Source of the DNA: Aidingimonas halophila
Lineage (GTDB): Bacteria; Pseudomonadota; Gammaproteobacteria; Pseudomonadales; Halomonadaceae
Direction of reading: 5' to 3'
Assembly (NCBI RefSeq): GCF_900106955.1
Contig: NZ_FNNI01000002.1
Span: 372,001 to 436,000 of the forward strand
DNA: 64,000 nt
Part shown: in pieces, positions 2,103-40,768 of the stretch
Layout of the letters: each line of letters begins with the position of its first letter
Position numbering within the stretch: the stretch's first letter is position 1
The notes under the pieces: model-generated
The model's database searches: none
What the model saw: the letters and a program-made list of their open reading frames with translations, nothing else
What the model was told of the DNA's origin: nothing
Translations under genes and position numbers: made by a program

Positions 2103-4417
<2,315 letters not shown>

Positions 4418-4467
4418 TCAGAGGAGTATGACGTCGGTCAACGATTTTTGATATTTGCCTGCAAGAA

Positions 4468-4498
4468 AACAACCCCGTGAGCAATTCACGGGGTTGTT
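4468..4498 (-). terminator. Rho-independent terminator after zipA
   Basis: A 13-bp perfect stem (AACAACCCCGTGA / TCACGGGGTTGTT) with a 5-base loop, followed on the minus strand by a T-rich tract (GTTTTCTT). It lies between the zipA stop and the ligA start. Confidence 0.8.
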
Positions 4499-4527
4499 AT
4501 CGTCATCGATGCGTGCAGGCAACGACA

Positions 4528-6237
4528 CTATGTCGCCTGGTAACGGTGCAGCCGGTATCGCCGCTCGAATTCCTGGACTCGTTGGCGGGCGAACTCAACG
4601 GTCTGGGCGGTCATGACGCTGTGGTTTTCATCCTTGAGCTCCCCGCCCAGATGGCGCACGACCACCATGGCCGTCTCCACCATCGCTTCGAACGATGATA
4701 GCGTGTCGCTAGCGCACGGGAGTGGCATCAACAATGTCACCCCAGGCGTGCGGAAATCATCCATCGATTGGAGAGGGAAAGTGCCCGGTTTCACCACATT
4801 GACCATCGAGAACTGCAGTTCGCTGTTGGGGTCCTCGGTCTCGAACCGGTGAAAGACACCCATATCACTGCTGTAGCGCAAGCCACATGCCAGCATCAGA
4901 TCCAGCAGCGCTGCCCCGGAAAACCCCTCTTCTTCATGGGACATGACACTGATGACGATGACTTCCTCGGCATTGACCAGTGTTTCACGGGCATGGTCGG
5001 CTTTCACATCATTGCGCAGCACCCGTTCGAAGGAGGGATGCGTTGCAACACGCGATGATCCTTCACCAACATGCTCATCGTCACCGCGTGCCATGGCTGG
5101 CTCGTCGTCCCGACCGCCATCATCGCGGGACGCCATGCGGGCTTCCTCATCTGCACGGGGGCGACGCGGCACAAAGAGCGGGTCGTCATAATCCTGTGCC
5201 TCTATGGACTCACGTTCATGGCGCTCTCGTTCCGCAGCCAGACGTGCTTCCTTCTCGCGCGTTTCCTGTTCGGCCTGGGCCTGCTGCCGTCGGCTGTTCT
5301 TGCGTGCCTGCTCCTCAGCCTTGACCTGAGCCTTCTCAAGTTTCTGTTTCTTTCGCTGCTCCTTGCGTTCCGACAATCCCTTCTGGAGGGAGGCGCCGAA
5401 ACGCTGCATGGAGGAGCCGACCTTGAGCGATTTCGATTTCAGGGAATCCGCCATCCCCTCCACGTCGACAAGCCGATACCGCTCGGCATCATGGTACTCA
5501 TCATGATCCCCGGGGTCTGCCGCGAGTGGCATATCGGCATTCTCCGGTGGCTTGGATTCGTCGGACGAGACAGACGTCAGGGTAGGTTCACGACGCTCAT
5601 CATCCGTGGGCTCAGCACTCCGGGCATGTTCCGGCTGGGCCTGATCCCGATAATGCGGTGTCTCGACTCGAGACTCACCGTCGGCGCCTATGCCTTCCTC
5701 TTTAGCCAAGGCATCTTTCGCCACGGGGTCATCATGCGTCGCTTTCGTGGCAGCCTCGGCTCGGGAATCGCTCTGCGACACGTTATCGTCGGCACGTTCA
5801 ACGTGCTCCGAACCCGGCGCTCGGTTCGCCGACTCAGGCTGACTTGCCGATTGCGTGTCGCGCACGGCATCGGCAGACGGCCTTCGTGTCTGGCTGAAGG
5901 GCGCCTCGGATGATTCACTATACTGCTGCCGCCATTCCGATAGCACCCGGGAGGGACCCGGGTGATCCTGACGTTTTATCTTGGGTTTGGGCTTGACGTC
6001 ATACTCTGCCGGTTTGACGACCCTCGCCCCACCATTAGGCAGCTCCCAATTGACTTCCGCTTCGCGGGCCGCCTGTTCGGGATCCACCGGTTCCTCCCCG
6101 TCCGGGTCGGCCGACGCTTTGTCGACACGGTCCAAGCGGGGTACTTTACGCTGGCGCTGAAGGCGACGTACACCATCAATAACGATGATCGTCACCAGCG
6201 CCAGCCCCAGGATGATAAGCCACTCTCGTAGTTCCAT
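4528..6237 (-). CDS. zipA: Cell division protein ZipA
   Basis: A 569-residue inner-membrane protein that tethers FtsZ to the membrane at the Z ring. The N-terminus MELREWLIILGLALVTIIV is the typical ZipA anchor helix, followed by basic residues and a long charged linker (about residues 30-425, rich in D, E, R, Q, S and A). The C-terminal FtsZ-binding domain starts near VIVISVMSHEEEGFSGAALL and ends in FERRYRLHRYQAT. The start at 6237 is chosen because the anchor helix begins there; the reading frame stays open a further 99 codons upstream with no family match. The protein is much longer than E. coli ZipA (328 residues), almost entirely in the linker. It lies downstream of smc. Confidence 0.92.
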   Translation of the reverse strand: MELREWLIILGLALVTIIVIDGVRRLQRQRKVPRLDRVDKASADPDGEEPVDPEQAAREAEVNWELPNGGARVVKPAEYDVKPKPKIKRQDHPGPSRVLSEWRQQYSESSEAPFSQTRRPSADAVRDTQSASQPESANRAPGSEHVERADDNVSQSDSRAEAATKATHDDPVAKDALAKEEGIGADGESRVETPHYRDQAQPEHARSAEPTDDERREPTLTSVSSDESKPPENADMPLAADPGDHDEYHDAERYRLVDVEGMADSLKSKSLKVGSSMQRFGASLQKGLSERKEQRKKQKLEKAQVKAEEQARKNSRRQQAQAEQETREKEARLAAERERHERESIEAQDYDDPLFVPRRPRADEEARMASRDDGGRDDEPAMARGDDEHVGEGSSRVATHPSFERVLRNDVKADHARETLVNAEEVIVISVMSHEEEGFSGAALLDLMLACGLRYSSDMGVFHRFETEDPNSELQFSMVNVVKPGTFPLQSMDDFRTPGVTLLMPLPCASDTLSSFEAMVETAMVVVRHLGGELKDENHSVMTAQTVEFARQRVQEFERRYRLHRYQAT

Positions 6238-29053: not shown

Positions 29054-29245
29054 TCAGGACGGTACGTCATCATCGTCGGTTTGTTCACGCTGGATGCGCT
29101 GATAGATCTCTTCACGATGGACGGCGACGTCCTTGGGTGCGTTGACTCCAATACGTACTTGATTGCCTTTGACTCCCAATACCGTCACGGTAATGTCGTC
29201 ACCGATCATCAAGGTTTCGCCGACTCGGCGGGTCAGGATGAGCAT
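29054..29245 (-). CDS. csrA: Carbon storage regulator CsrA (RsmA)
   Basis: 63 residues: [20 protein letters not shown], then [20 protein letters not shown] and [10 protein letters not shown], the complete CsrA fold with the RNA-contacting Leu4/Arg6 and Arg44 regions. The dimer binds GGA motifs in mRNA leaders and controls translation and stability. AAGGAG lies eight bases before the ATG. The gene lies between lysC and tRNA-Ser as in Pseudomonas and enterobacteria. A likely sequestering RNA is encoded at 38991-39166 in this window. Confidence 0.98.
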
Positions 29246-35754: not shown

Positions 35755-35832
35755 AACGGCGTTGTCGACGAAATGCAGACTCCCGCATCGTGCGGCCAAC
35801 AGCGCCTCAGCGACCTACTGTCAAGGATGTCC

Positions 35833-38415
35833 ATGTCACAGGCAAGCCCTCAGCATACCCCCATGATGACGCAATACCTGAAGATCAAGCGCGAACACCC
35901 GGACGTGCTGCTCTTCTATCGCATGGGTGACTTCTATGAGCTGTTCTATGATGATGCCAAGCGTGCCGCGGAATTGCTCGACATCACGCTGACCCAGCGA
36001 GGTCAGTCGGCCGGCCAGCCAATTCCCATGGCCGGCGTGCCCTATCATAGCGCAGAGAGCTACCTGGCAAGATTGGTGAAGTCCGGTGAATCGGTGGCCA
36101 TCTGCGAGCAGATGGGCGACCCCAACACCGCCAAGGGCCCGGTGGAGCGCCAGGTCGTTCGCATCGTCACGCCCGGCACCCTGCATGATGAAGCCCTGCT
36201 GGACGCCCGTCGCGACAATCTTCTGTTAGCACTCTATCATGCTGGCCAACGCTGGGGGCTGGCCTGGCTGGAGCTGTCCAGCGGCCGTTTCAATGTGCTG
36301 GAGGTCGAGGGGGATACGGAAATGTTGGCTGAAGTGCAGCGGCTGGATCCGGCGGAACTGTTGGCAGCCGACAGCGCCTCCCTGCCCGGCGCCCTGTCCG
36401 AGCGTCGCGGCTTACGCCGACAGAGCGACTGGCTATTCGATCCGGCATCGGCGACACGCATTCTATGCGATCAACTAGAGGTTGCCGACCTGCGTGGCTT
36501 TGGCTGTACACACCTGGAGACCGCCCTGACGGCCGCCGGGGTACTGATCGATTATGCCCGCGACACCCAACGCTCACGCTTGCCCCACGTCACGGCGATC
36601 GGTGTCGAAAGTCGCGACGACGCTGTCATCATCGATGCGGCCAGCCGACGCAACCTGGAAATCGACACCAACCTCAGCGGCAGCACCGACAACACGCTGG
36701 CCAGCGTACTCGATACCACGTCGACGGCGATGGGATCGCGCCTGCTCAAACGCTGGCTGAATCGTCCCTTACGAGACCACACCCAGGTCAGTGCTCGCCA
36801 GGCGGCCATCCAGCAACTGCTCGATGACGACGGGTACGACAGCCTGCGCGATTCGCTCAAACAGGTCGGCGACATCGAGCGCATTCTTGCACGCGTCGCC
36901 TTGCGCAGCGCTCGTCCACGCGACTTGGCCCGCCTTCGCGAGGCCCTCAATACACTGCCTGAACTCCGGTCGTCACTGGCACATTTCGAGGAGGGATCGG
37001 CACTGGATGACCTGAAACACCACATCCGTCCCTATCCGGAGTTGGCCGACACCCTCGACCGAGCCCTGGTCGACGAGCCACCTGTCGTGATCCGCGACGG
37101 CGGCGTCATCGCCGAGGGGTTCGATGCAGAGCTCGATGAATATCGCGGCCTCGCCGAGCATGCCGGCGACTACCTGGTCAACCTGGAGATTCGCGAGCGC
37201 GAGCGCACCGGCCTGTCCGGCCTCAAGGTCGGCTACAACCGAGTTCACGGCTATTACATCGAGATCCCCCGGGCCCAGGCCCGCGAGGCGCCGGCCGACT
37301 ATATTCGTCGCCAGACGCTAAAGAATGCGGAGCGCTTCATCATTCCCGAGCTCAAGGAGTTCGAGGACAAGGCGCTGTCGGCCAAATCACGGGCATTGGC
37401 ACGTGAAAAGCAACTCTACGAATCGCTGCTCGAAACGCTCAATGCCGATCTCGATGCACTACAGGCCAGTAGCCGGGCGTTGTCGGCCCTGGATGTCCTG
37501 ACGACATTCGCCGAGCGGGCACAGGCACTGGATTTTACCCGTCCTCGCTTGAGTGAAGCACCAGGCATCCACATTCATAACGGTCGTCATCCGGTCGTTG
37601 AACAGGTCAGCGATACGCCGTTCGTACCCAATGACCTCGACCTCGGTGACTCACGACGCATGTTGATGATTACCGGCCCCAACATGGGAGGGAAATCGAC
37701 CTACATGCGTCAGGTGGCCCTGATCACCCTACTGGCCCATACCGGCGCCTTCGTTCCGGCCGACAGTGCCGATATCGGCCCGGTGGATCGCATCTTCACC
37801 CGCATCGGTTCCAGCGACGACCTGGCCGGTGGTCGATCGACCTTCATGGTCGAAATGACCGAAACCGCCAGTATCCTGCATAACGCCACCGACCACAGCC
37901 TGGTGTTGATGGATGAGATCGGTCGAGGTACCAGCACATTCGACGGATTGTCGCTGGCCTGGGCCAGCGCCGAACACCTGACCCGAACACGTGCCTTCAC
38001 TTTGTTCGCGACCCACTATTTCGAAATGACCGCCCTGGCGGATCAGATCGACGGCGTTGCCAACGTGCATCTGACTGCTGCCGAACACAAGGACGGTATC
38101 GTGTTCATGCACCGTGTCGAAGAAGGGCCGGCAAGCCAGAGCTACGGGCTGCAGGTTGCCCAACTGGCGGGGGTGCCACAGGAGGTGATCAGTCGGGCAC
38201 GCGAGAAGCTTGCCAATCTGGAACAGCAGGAGATCGACCAGGGGCATCGTCACAACTCGACGATATCCAACGACAAGACGCCGCATCCACAACAGGCTGA
38301 CCTGTTCGCGACGGCACCCCACCCGTTGATCGAAGCGCTCGCCTCCCTTGAGTTGGACGATCTGACGCCCCGTCAGGCACTGAACATGCTATACGAGTGG
38401 CGAGACAGTCTATGA
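35833..38415 (+). CDS. mutS: DNA mismatch repair protein MutS
   Basis: 860 residues. The N-terminal mismatch-binding motif [15 protein letters not shown] has the conserved Phe-X-Glu contact. Connector, lever and clamp domains follow. The C-terminal ATPase has Walker [14 protein letters not shown], Walker [18 protein letters not shown] and the helix-turn-helix dimer region, with a C-terminal tail ending in MLYEWRDSL. It recognises mismatches and recruits MutL. The ATG at 35833 is preferred because AAGGA lies 5 bases upstream; an ATG two codons earlier directly abuts that site. Confidence 0.97.
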
Positions 38416-38629: not shown

Positions 38630-38956
38630 ATGACATTCGTCGTCACCGAGAACTGCATCAAATGCAAGTACACCGACTGCGTCGAAGTTTGCCCGGTGGA
38701 CTGCTTCTATGAAGGGCCCAATTTCCTGGTCATTCATCCCGACGAGTGCATCGACTGTGCCCTTTGTGAACCGGAATGTCCCGCCGAGGCCATCTACTCA
38801 GAAGATGAGCTGCCCGACGATCAGAAACAGTTTCTGGAACTGAATGCCGAACTGGCTGAGACATGGCCGAACATCGCCGAGAAGAAGGACCCTCCGGAAG
38901 ATGCGGAAGAGTGGGATGGCAAACCGGGCAAGCTGGAGTATCTCGAACGAGAATGA
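38630..38956 (+). CDS. fdxA: Seven-iron ferredoxin FdxA
   Basis: 108 residues. [20 protein letters not shown] begins a [3Fe-4S]/[4Fe-4S] ferredoxin; the second cysteine set is [13 protein letters not shown]. The acidic C-terminal extension ([20 protein letters not shown] and after) is typical of the FdxA/Azotobacter FdI type. AGGAG sits 6 bases before the ATG at 38630; 17 upstream in-frame codons lack family match. In Pseudomonas fdxA lies between mutS and rsmZ; the same order is found here. Confidence 0.96.
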
Positions 38957-38960
38957 ACAT

Positions 38961-38990
38961 GCTGATGGCCCATGATCGTGGGCCATCAGC
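38961..38990. terminator. Stem-loop after fdxA, tail to tail with the sRNA terminator
   Basis: Perfect 12-bp stem GCTGATGGCCCA / TGGGCCATCAGC with loop TGATCG, five bases after the fdxA stop. It is followed on the plus strand by seven A, not T, so it is not a standard intrinsic terminator for fdxA; it may still fold at the transcript end and stop read-through in both directions. Confidence 0.5.
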
Positions 38991-39015
38991 AAAAAAAGGC
39001 GACCCGAAGGTCGCC
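38991..39015 (-). terminator. Intrinsic terminator of the RsmZ-like RNA
   Basis: On the minus strand a perfect 7-bp stem GGCGACC / GGTCGCC with tetraloop TTCG (38998-39015) followed by seven T (38991-38997). Confidence 0.9.
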
Positions 39016-39166
39016 CGCTCCCAGCTACTCCTTTGAGCCACTCCCTTGGCTCGATTCCTTTGGTGACTTCCCTGCCGAGAGGCGACCTCCTGTCACACTC
39101 GGCGCACCACGACTAGCATCCCGTTGGCATCCTGCCGGAAAAGCGCTCCTCGCTTTTCCACATCCC
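38991..39166 (-). ncRNA. rsmZ: CsrA-sequestering small RNA, RsmZ/CsrB type
   Basis: About 175 bases with no open frame but 11 GGA motifs on the minus strand. Several are in hairpin loops, the preferred CsrA/RsmA target: stem GGAAAAGCG/CGCTTTTCC with loop AGGAG (39137-39159), GGC/GCC with loop AGGAT (39126-39136), GTGAC/GTCGC with loop AGGAG inside CCGAG/CTCGG (39075-39102), and GAGCCA/TGGCTC with loop AGGGAG (39035-39052). Others (CAAAGGAGT, AAAGGAAT) lie in linkers. It ends in a strong intrinsic terminator. The 5' end is estimated from the first GGA and a weak TTGAGA-17-AAAATG promoter (39172-39200) and could be further upstream. Position next to fdxA matches Pseudomonas rsmZ. It should bind CsrA (gene at 29054-29245) and release its targets. 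Confidence 0.82.
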
Positions 39167-39339
39167 GGGTTCATTTTGGCAGCTGAAGAGAAGTTCTCAA
39201 GGTGGTCAGAAATTGAAGCCGCAAGGAATCAGAGGCTTGAACTCTAAGCATGAGTTCTTTAATTTCAAGGAGTTGCATTATTTAATACATGGACGAATTG
39301 ATCATTTTTTAACCACTATCGTCAAATTCTTCGGCGATA

Positions 39340-39379
39340 TGTAAGCGATTTCCTACAAAACCTTAGGAAATCGCTTACA
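39340..39379 (-). promoter_or_regulatory. Double GacA/UvrY-like box (40-bp palindrome)
   Basis: Perfect 16-base arms TGTAAGCGATTTCCTA and TAGGAAATCGCTTACA around an 8-base centre. The left part reads TGTAAG-N6-CCTACA (39340-39357), one mismatch from the GacA upstream activating sequence TGTAAG-N6-CTTACA; the mirrored right part ends in a perfect CTTACA. It lies about 175-210 bases upstream of the estimated 5' end of the RsmZ-like RNA, in the eno 3' region. No T-run follows on either strand, so a terminator is unlikely. Confidence 0.7.
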
Positions 39380-39397
39380 CCGGCAGGCCGATCACAA

Positions 39398-39416
39398 GGC
39401 GATAACCGATATCACC
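39398..39416 (-). terminator. Weak stem-loop after eno
   Basis: On the minus strand GGTGATA / TATCGCC, seven pairs including one G-U, nine bases after the eno stop, followed only by TTGTG. It is the only candidate for eno termination before the GacA-like palindrome. Confidence 0.3.
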
Positions 39417-39424
39417 TCAATGGC

Positions 39425-40768
<1,344 letters not shown>

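Follow-up and report, generated by a model that had tools for sequence, protein, structure and literature searches.

The minus strand of the 64 kb window from Aidingimonas halophila (the window is the whole stretch of DNA that was analysed) very probably carries a non-coding RNA gene of about 176 nt, which would be a GacA-activated sponge for CsrA and is probably an ortholog of RsmZ. This reading is based on sequence features, conservation, covariation, synteny, an upstream box and a promoter that are conserved among the closer relatives, and the fact that the genome also encodes CsrA and GacA. From these we infer that the unit is transcribed, where exactly it begins and ends, that it depends on GacA and binds CsrA, and that it is orthologous to RsmZ rather than of independent origin at the same site. 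An initial annotation of the locus had proposed a CsrA/RsmA-sequestering RNA, and GGA loops, compensatory changes, a promoter, a terminator and the RsmZ position all support it. The sequence features of CsrA/RsmA sponges are present together: GGA-bearing loops, an own promoter and terminator, a GacA box, and csrA and gacA.

The predicted RNA gene and its fold

The features of the window that bear on this reading are listed below.

29054–29245, minus strand: csrA, the presumed protein target, 63 aa (NCBIfam CsrA NF002469, 120.7 bits; cut-off 73)
35773–38415, plus strand: ORF, which we take to be mutS
38630–38956, plus strand: fdxA, the convergent neighbor (NF045490, 180.1 bits; cut-off 135)
38991–39166, minus strand: predicted RsmZ-like CsrA-sponge RNA gene, about 176 nt with 11 GGA (covariance-model match 38989–39166)
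38991–39021, minus strand: intrinsic terminator with a G+C stem, a UUCG loop and seven T at 38997–38991 (pattern scan; helix 7)
39035–39052, minus strand: hairpin 4, loop AGGGAG (helix 6, both-side changes in 6 of 6 pairs; GGA in 30 of 30 sequences)
39061–39109, minus strand: composite hairpin 3, with AGGAG in the end loop and an unpaired GGGA on the 3' side (helices 4 and 5)
39126–39136, minus strand: hairpin 2, loop GGA closed by A-U (fold; helix 2; GGA 39132–39130 in 29–30 of 30 sequences)
39137–39159, minus strand: hairpin 1, loop AGGAG (fold; helix 1, both-side changes in 9 of 9 pairs in some sequence)
39173–39200, minus strand: predicted promoter, TTGAGA and then TGCCAAAAT, with the -35 element TTGAGA at 39200–39195 and the -10 element CAAAAT, preceded by TG, at 39178–39173 (pattern scan)
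39340–39379, minus strand: predicted GacA/UvrY-type box, of which 39357–39340 fits 11 of the 12 fixed positions of TGTAAGN6CTTACA
39425–40717, minus strand: eno, the upstream neighbor on the strand of the RNA (TIGR01060, 678.1 bits; cut-off 300)

The 5' end of the RNA was placed from the promoter and the 3' end from the terminator. Between them, the 176 nt of the minus strand from 39166 to 38991 hold 11 GGA, about twice the expectation from dinucleotide shuffles (6.0 ± 1.6; at least 11 in 5 of 2000), and this locus is the sole site in the window, on either strand, where a 150-nt stretch has at least 10 GGA. Fold prediction gave a mean unpaired probability of at least 0.5 for 9 of the 11 GGA; the mostly paired ones lie in stem 1 (39159, 0.0) and at the terminator foot (39021, 0.21). 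The initial annotation had counted the GGA exactly, and its other structural claims also held: the predicted fold shows GGA in the end loops of four hairpins, at least four having been announced, and the stem with a TTCG loop and seven T was recovered as a terminator by the pattern scan.

The single sequence does not stand out by its folding energy (z = -1.78), and 13 of 200 shuffles did as well. Because the fold is only modestly better than that of shuffles, the structure was tested by comparison with related sequences, and the structural claim is carried by covariation.

A 16-bp inverted repeat (94% complementary) was also noted at 38960–38991, between the fdxA stop and the terminator of the RNA; it is possibly the terminator of fdxA or a second terminator for the RNA.

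Conservation and covariation among halomonads

A blastn search with the region gave matches in 16 of 38 genomes, including the source genome (3.9 Mb), and 8 of the 18 rows were matches of 23–38 nt to the terminator. Among the best 80 fdxA loci listed, the nearest sequences over the RNA region belonged to Modicisalibacter, Salinicola, Vreelandella, Cobetia, Larsenimonas and ‘Halomonas’ (74–77% identity). The first alignment consisted of only the 10 long blastn homologs, the window's own among them, and from these the covariance model R1, with 177 positions and 48 pairs, was derived. At E 0.001, R1 matched 94 of 121 genomes of the family. Full-length matches of at least 47 bits were found in 87 of them, distributed over 16 of 24 genera; this count excludes seven genomes with weak or terminator-only matches (G005, G008, G022, G056, G089, G106, and G128), and a strong match was absent from 34 of the 121. 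When 244 genomes drawn from the order, some of them from the family itself, were searched under stricter filters by which weak matches were lost, R1 scored at most 29.7 bits outside the family, and many of those rows covered the terminator only.

The position of the gene is also conserved. In each of 35 loci eno lies upstream on the same strand, and convergent fdxA follows in 34, the remaining locus being cut by a contig end. Both genes were found in this arrangement in 17 of 21 further stretches, which come mostly from diverged genera and include three from genomes already among the 35 loci. In two stretches from genus g17 (L167 and L168) eno is present and fdxA was not in the fetched stretch, while two weak matches from genus g4 (L173 and L174) have neither neighbor and for this reason are probably not the RNA gene. 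In two Salinicola species (L033 and L035) fdxA is close to eno, and no GGA-rich RNA was seen between them after fdxA, from 4321 onwards.

With 42 matches aligned to the model, standard pairs occupied 95.3% of cells and both-side changes occurred in 40 of the 48 pairs. The covariation score of this alignment, which is fitted to the structure, was 0.431. Shuffled columns gave 0.190, with none of 500 reaching the observed value, and slid versions did not exceed 0.106. A structure-free MAFFT alignment of 30 of the 42 sequences (three near-duplicates were dropped, as were the sequences that were most diverged or repeated) gave compensatory changes in 21 of 41 RNAalifold pairs, including those of the hairpin with the GGGA loop. 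All 30 sequences have 10–12 GGA, and before the terminator the GGA columns are more conserved than the others (0.87 vs. 0.74). Conservation is complete (30 of 30) for the GGA at RNA positions 96, 123, and 146; at 2, 35, and 46 each base of the GGA is shared by 29 sequences or more, and at 77 and 109 by 25 or more. Three more, at positions 8, 18, and 136, are less in register (one base or more in only 11–13 of 30), partly because their surroundings vary in length.

Predicted promoter and GacA box

The TTGAG and TGCCA of the promoter are invariant in the 10 aligned homologs. In a larger set of 29 loci, TTG stands at the -35 place in every locus, and the -10 place has TGCCA in 28 and GGCCA in one; a stricter -35 pattern (TTGA followed by G or C) was matched in 20 of the 29.

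The GacA box is a feature absent from the initial annotation. TGTAAGN6CTTACA is given as the Gac box consensus in the excerpted text of PMC11837529. Beside the listed box, a second, partial one (9 of 12 fixed positions) lies at 39379–39362 on the minus strand, and together they form a perfect inverted repeat of 16 bp around an 8-nt spacer, within a palindromic stretch of 40 bp (39379–39340). The best match within 500 nt upstream was sought in 30 fetched loci, of which L139 was left out as its start pattern was not found. In all 29 best-scoring loci the box is 187–212 nt upstream of the RNA start (187–193 in 27), and it has at least 10 of the 12 fixed positions in 26, a level that base-shuffled upstream regions reach in 1.3% of cases. 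The sequence from the box to the promoter is not conserved among the homologs. A second set of 24 loci, which includes more diverged genera, was divided equally: a box of at least 10 of 12 positions was present in 12 and not found in 12, the latter mostly diverged (g4, g8, g10, g16, g17, Larsenimonas, and one of g21).

Boxes with at most one mismatch are not in excess in the window's own genome (7 vs. 6 in the reversed control), and the window has three single boxes with at most two mismatches where 0.75 are expected, which is not significant by itself. Exact TGTAAGNNATNNCTTACA sites, a pattern outside which the window's own box falls, number 21 in 6 of 23 genomes, compared with one for the reversed control. 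This difference suggests that the motif is in use in at least part of the family.

Two perfect GacA boxes were observed elsewhere in the same genome. One (L022, G000:C17:279361) precedes a PAS-GGDEF protein ORF by 183 nt. The other (L023, G000:C20:79263) precedes the ORF of an outer-membrane efflux protein by 243 nt, and two other genomes have stretches similar to this one, likewise with a box (L187 and L188). Both are possible direct targets of GacA other than small RNAs.

The proposed CsrA/GacA circuit and its mechanism

In addition to csrA, the genome has gacA just upstream of uvrC (L145, approximately 3349–4005); the match of its product to NF007018 (UvrY/SirA/GacA) scores 281.8 bits, narrowly above the cut-off of 280. 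A hybrid kinase of 948 aa (L155:483–3329), located via its HPt domain, also has HisKA, HATPase and receiver domains and appears to be GacS-like. Its best NCBIfam match is BarA, with 592 bits, below the equivalog cut-off of 890, and a profile search of the genome for the BarA sensor domain PF09984 found none. Judging by eye, we take the neighbors of the kinase gene to be cysM and acpS-pdxJ.

By analogy with CsrB and RsmZ, the sponge in A. halophila would work as follows. Phosphorylated GacA would bind the box about 190 bp upstream and turn the promoter on. The RNA would then fold so that its hairpin loops expose GGA, with more GGA between the hairpins, and would bind several CsrA dimers, often with one dimer bridging two sites, as CsrA can do for sites 10–63 nt apart (PMC7652899, in excerpt). 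CsrA would thus be withdrawn from mRNA leaders, and the mRNAs that it represses would be freed.

Relation to Pseudomonas RsmZ

At the gathering score, Rfam recognized only three tRNAs in the window. The initial annotation had looked to the CsrB/RsmY/RsmZ covariance models for confirmation, and here it was disappointed: the Csr/Rsm families of Rfam (CsrB, CsrC, RsmY, and RsmZ) had no match over 38940–39430 even at E 10. Five other Rfam rows at E 10 (MIR396, snoZ101, MIR7533, Chlorobi-1, and L2-Alphaproteobacteria; E 0.56–5.8) were taken for chance or for the GacA palindrome. The PrrB_RsmZ model RF00166, with a threshold of 44 bits, had no match at the locus or in the window's own genome; over 38 genomes it gave five matches, none of them over the cut-off. 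Because RF00166 does not score the RNA, we have not filed the RNA in that family.

Some of these subthreshold matches deserve mention in their own right. L028 and L029 look like other GGA-rich RNAs, and L032 is without GGA. L030 and L031, together with L113, which is similar to L030, are GGA-rich and partly alike; a blastn search of the window's own genome with L030 found nothing. With the exception of L032, these loci are possible second sponge RNAs of the relatives.

The surroundings of fdxA were compared in named loci, of which the best 80 were listed, 20 of them from Pseudomonas or Stutzerimonas. In 62 of the 80, fdxA is preceded on its own strand by a mutS-like ORF. The order mutS, fdxA and a convergent RNA, which the initial annotation had likened to that around Pseudomonas rsmZ, was confirmed both here and in Pseudomonas loci, with eno beyond the RNA here. 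Of those 20 loci, seven were scanned with Rfam, and six of these (L043, L057, L088, L082, L060, and L068) have RsmZ at the place and on the strand of our RNA, that is, on the minus strand, with its near end 29–242 nt after the end of the fdxA match. L046 (Stutzerimonas) had no match at the gathering score and a CsrC match of 19.9 bits at the RsmZ place; Atopomonas (L039) had no Rfam RsmZ after fdxA. A box of at least 10 of 12 positions was found downstream of fdxA in 24 of 79 named loci, 22 of them with at least seven GGA in the expected place, and in the control region before fdxA in 2 of 76 (from the best 80 listed, one and four loci, respectively, were left out as too short).

Alternative explanations

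The RNA could be a separately arisen CsrA sponge with the same function, not orthologous to RsmZ, whose position at fdxA would be a coincidence or a preferred landing place. We consider this unlikely, even though RF00166 does not match the RNA and R1 scores RsmZ at only 18–19 bits, in 2 of the 20 Pseudomonas/Stutzerimonas loci, with no match at the RsmZ place in the other 18 at E 0.01. The two weak matches (L060, 4429–4553, 18.1 bits; L068, 4383–4524, 18.8 bits; E about 0.001) start exactly where Rfam RsmZ starts in these loci (4429–4561 and 4383–4516, respectively) and end no more than 8 nt from its ends, which argues against a separate origin, as do a subthreshold RF00166 match at the corresponding site in Marinomonas (25.3 bits, E 0.08) and the fact that both groups share the side and strand of fdxA and the upstream GacA box. 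In our opinion, the RNA is probably an ortholog of Pseudomonas RsmZ that has been kept in place after fdxA.

Three further explanations concern the nature of the locus itself. Small RNAs that act by base pairing (Hfq-type) are common, and a discrete RNA bounded by a promoter and a terminator could be one of them, with its GGA richness being incidental; the stronger conservation of the GGA columns, the compensatory variation of the stems and the GacA type of the upstream box make this very improbable. Even less probable is that the RNA is merely the 3' untranslated region of eno without a promoter of its own. It is on the eno strand, about 260 nt past the eno stop, and the pattern scan found no minus-strand terminator between the two, but the -35 and -10 elements hold a fixed place in 29 loci, the box holds a fixed distance, and the sequence from the box to the promoter is not conserved. 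The least probable reading is a small protein gene on either strand. An ORF of 91 aa lies opposite the RNA, and an opposite-strand ORF extends over at least 150 nt of it in 11 of 29 loci; this frame, however, varies between loci and is absent in 18 of the 29. The 91-aa ORF was matched in 11 of 56 loci, including its own (76% in the same genus and about 39% over 69–77 aa in two others; the remaining matches were shorter pieces), and was without a match in 45. On the RNA strand, only close groups have ORFs (of about 20 codons or more) in common, and the 30-sequence alignment has indels whose lengths are not multiples of three. In these ORF comparisons among relatives, on both strands, no conserved protein gene was found over the RNA, in line with the original statement that no protein gene covers it.

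Probable enlarged forms in Cobetia and Larsenimonas

In two halomonad lineages, namely Cobetia with its relatives and Larsenimonas with a similar genus, it appears likely that the RNA gene has been enlarged within one transcript. The features concerned are the following.

L044:4321–5900, minus strand: predicted enlarged RNA form of Cobetia amphilecti, with a single GacA box and a terminator that resembles the short form's
L063:4489–5054, minus strand: tandem repeat units of Larsenimonas suaedae between eno and fdxA, four by eye and three matched by R1

In C. amphilecti (L044) and in three genomes of one genus (L160–L162), a terminator resembling that of the short form lies about 900 bp beyond a single box. 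With the start taken at box + 190, and with this start and the unity of the transcript presumed, the RNA would measure 709–725 nt. It has 34 (L160), 40 (L161), 37 (L162), and 39 (L044) GGA, compared with means of 22–25 in shuffles, which reached these counts in 1, 0, 0, and 0 of 500, respectively. GGA is borne by 9 of 18, 13 of 20, 12 of 22, and 14 of 21 hairpin loops in the same order. The enlarged form has stop-free stretches of 156 codons (L161, one frame) and 142 codons (L044, one frame).

Two genomes of the genus similar to Larsenimonas, G044 and G058 (L156 and L157), have four adjacent or overlapping R1 matches over about 720 nt between eno and fdxA, and a simple scan found no terminator inside the array before its end. 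A box of at least 10 of 12 positions was not found in these two loci or in L. suaedae (L063).

The enlargement seen in some genera is unusual. To our knowledge, the enlarged halomonad forms would, if true, be the largest CsrA sponges. They would mean that sponge capacity evolves by the growth of one RNA, beyond the addition of gene copies. They would also provide a natural size series in which to study the number of CsrA sites that a sponge requires.

Significance for halomonads

Halomonads are used for salt-tolerant bioproduction. In the excerpted table of a 2020 review, Halomonas anticariensis is listed with a GacS-GacA system that controls quorum sensing, exopolysaccharide and biofilm; CsrA stands in brackets in its row, and the sponge RNA is entered as unknown (PMC7366521). 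The RNA described here, if it is what it seems, fills this gap and provides a locus open to testing by deletion. In the open-licence PMC literature, to which the search was confined without subscription papers, no Csr/Rsm RNA of Halomonas or Cobetia was recognized among the matches listed, and the main text of a 2017 machine-learning prediction paper names neither Halomonas nor Chromohalobacter. The halomonad RNA may have been predicted elsewhere, for example in subscription papers. On the sequence evidence, we regard it as a known kind of RNA that is widespread in its family and escapes the present Rfam models. With a new covariance model it would be annotated in many halomonads, here in 87 of the 121 genomes.

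Comparison with known systems

RsmZ/PrrB (RF00166) is like the RNA of the window in being convergent to fdxA and soon after its stop, in having a GacA box upstream and in being rich in GGA; the RsmZ of P. brassicacearum, for example, has 10 GGA (PMC7911923, in excerpt). The two differ in that the RNA of the window has no Rfam match and is about 176 nt long, compared with 133 positions in the model. They also differ in their surroundings, since eno lies beyond the RNA here, whereas the Pseudomonas loci had no match to eno; there, rpoS lies beyond the RNA.

CsrB and CsrC of Escherichia coli would share with the RNA the sequestration of CsrA by many GGA sites, which for the latter is our reading of the sequence. 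The E. coli RNA CsrB, however, is 369 nt long with 22 GGA (PMC5027483, in excerpt), and the RNA of the window has no match to the Rfam families.

For Azotobacter vinelandii, RsmZ1–7 and RsmY1–2 are tabulated in the excerpted review (PMC7366521). The likeness to RsmZ1–7 is that binding capacity has increased in the RsmZ line; the difference is that Azotobacter has several RsmZ copies, whereas the Cobetia and Larsenimonas relatives apparently have one longer RNA.
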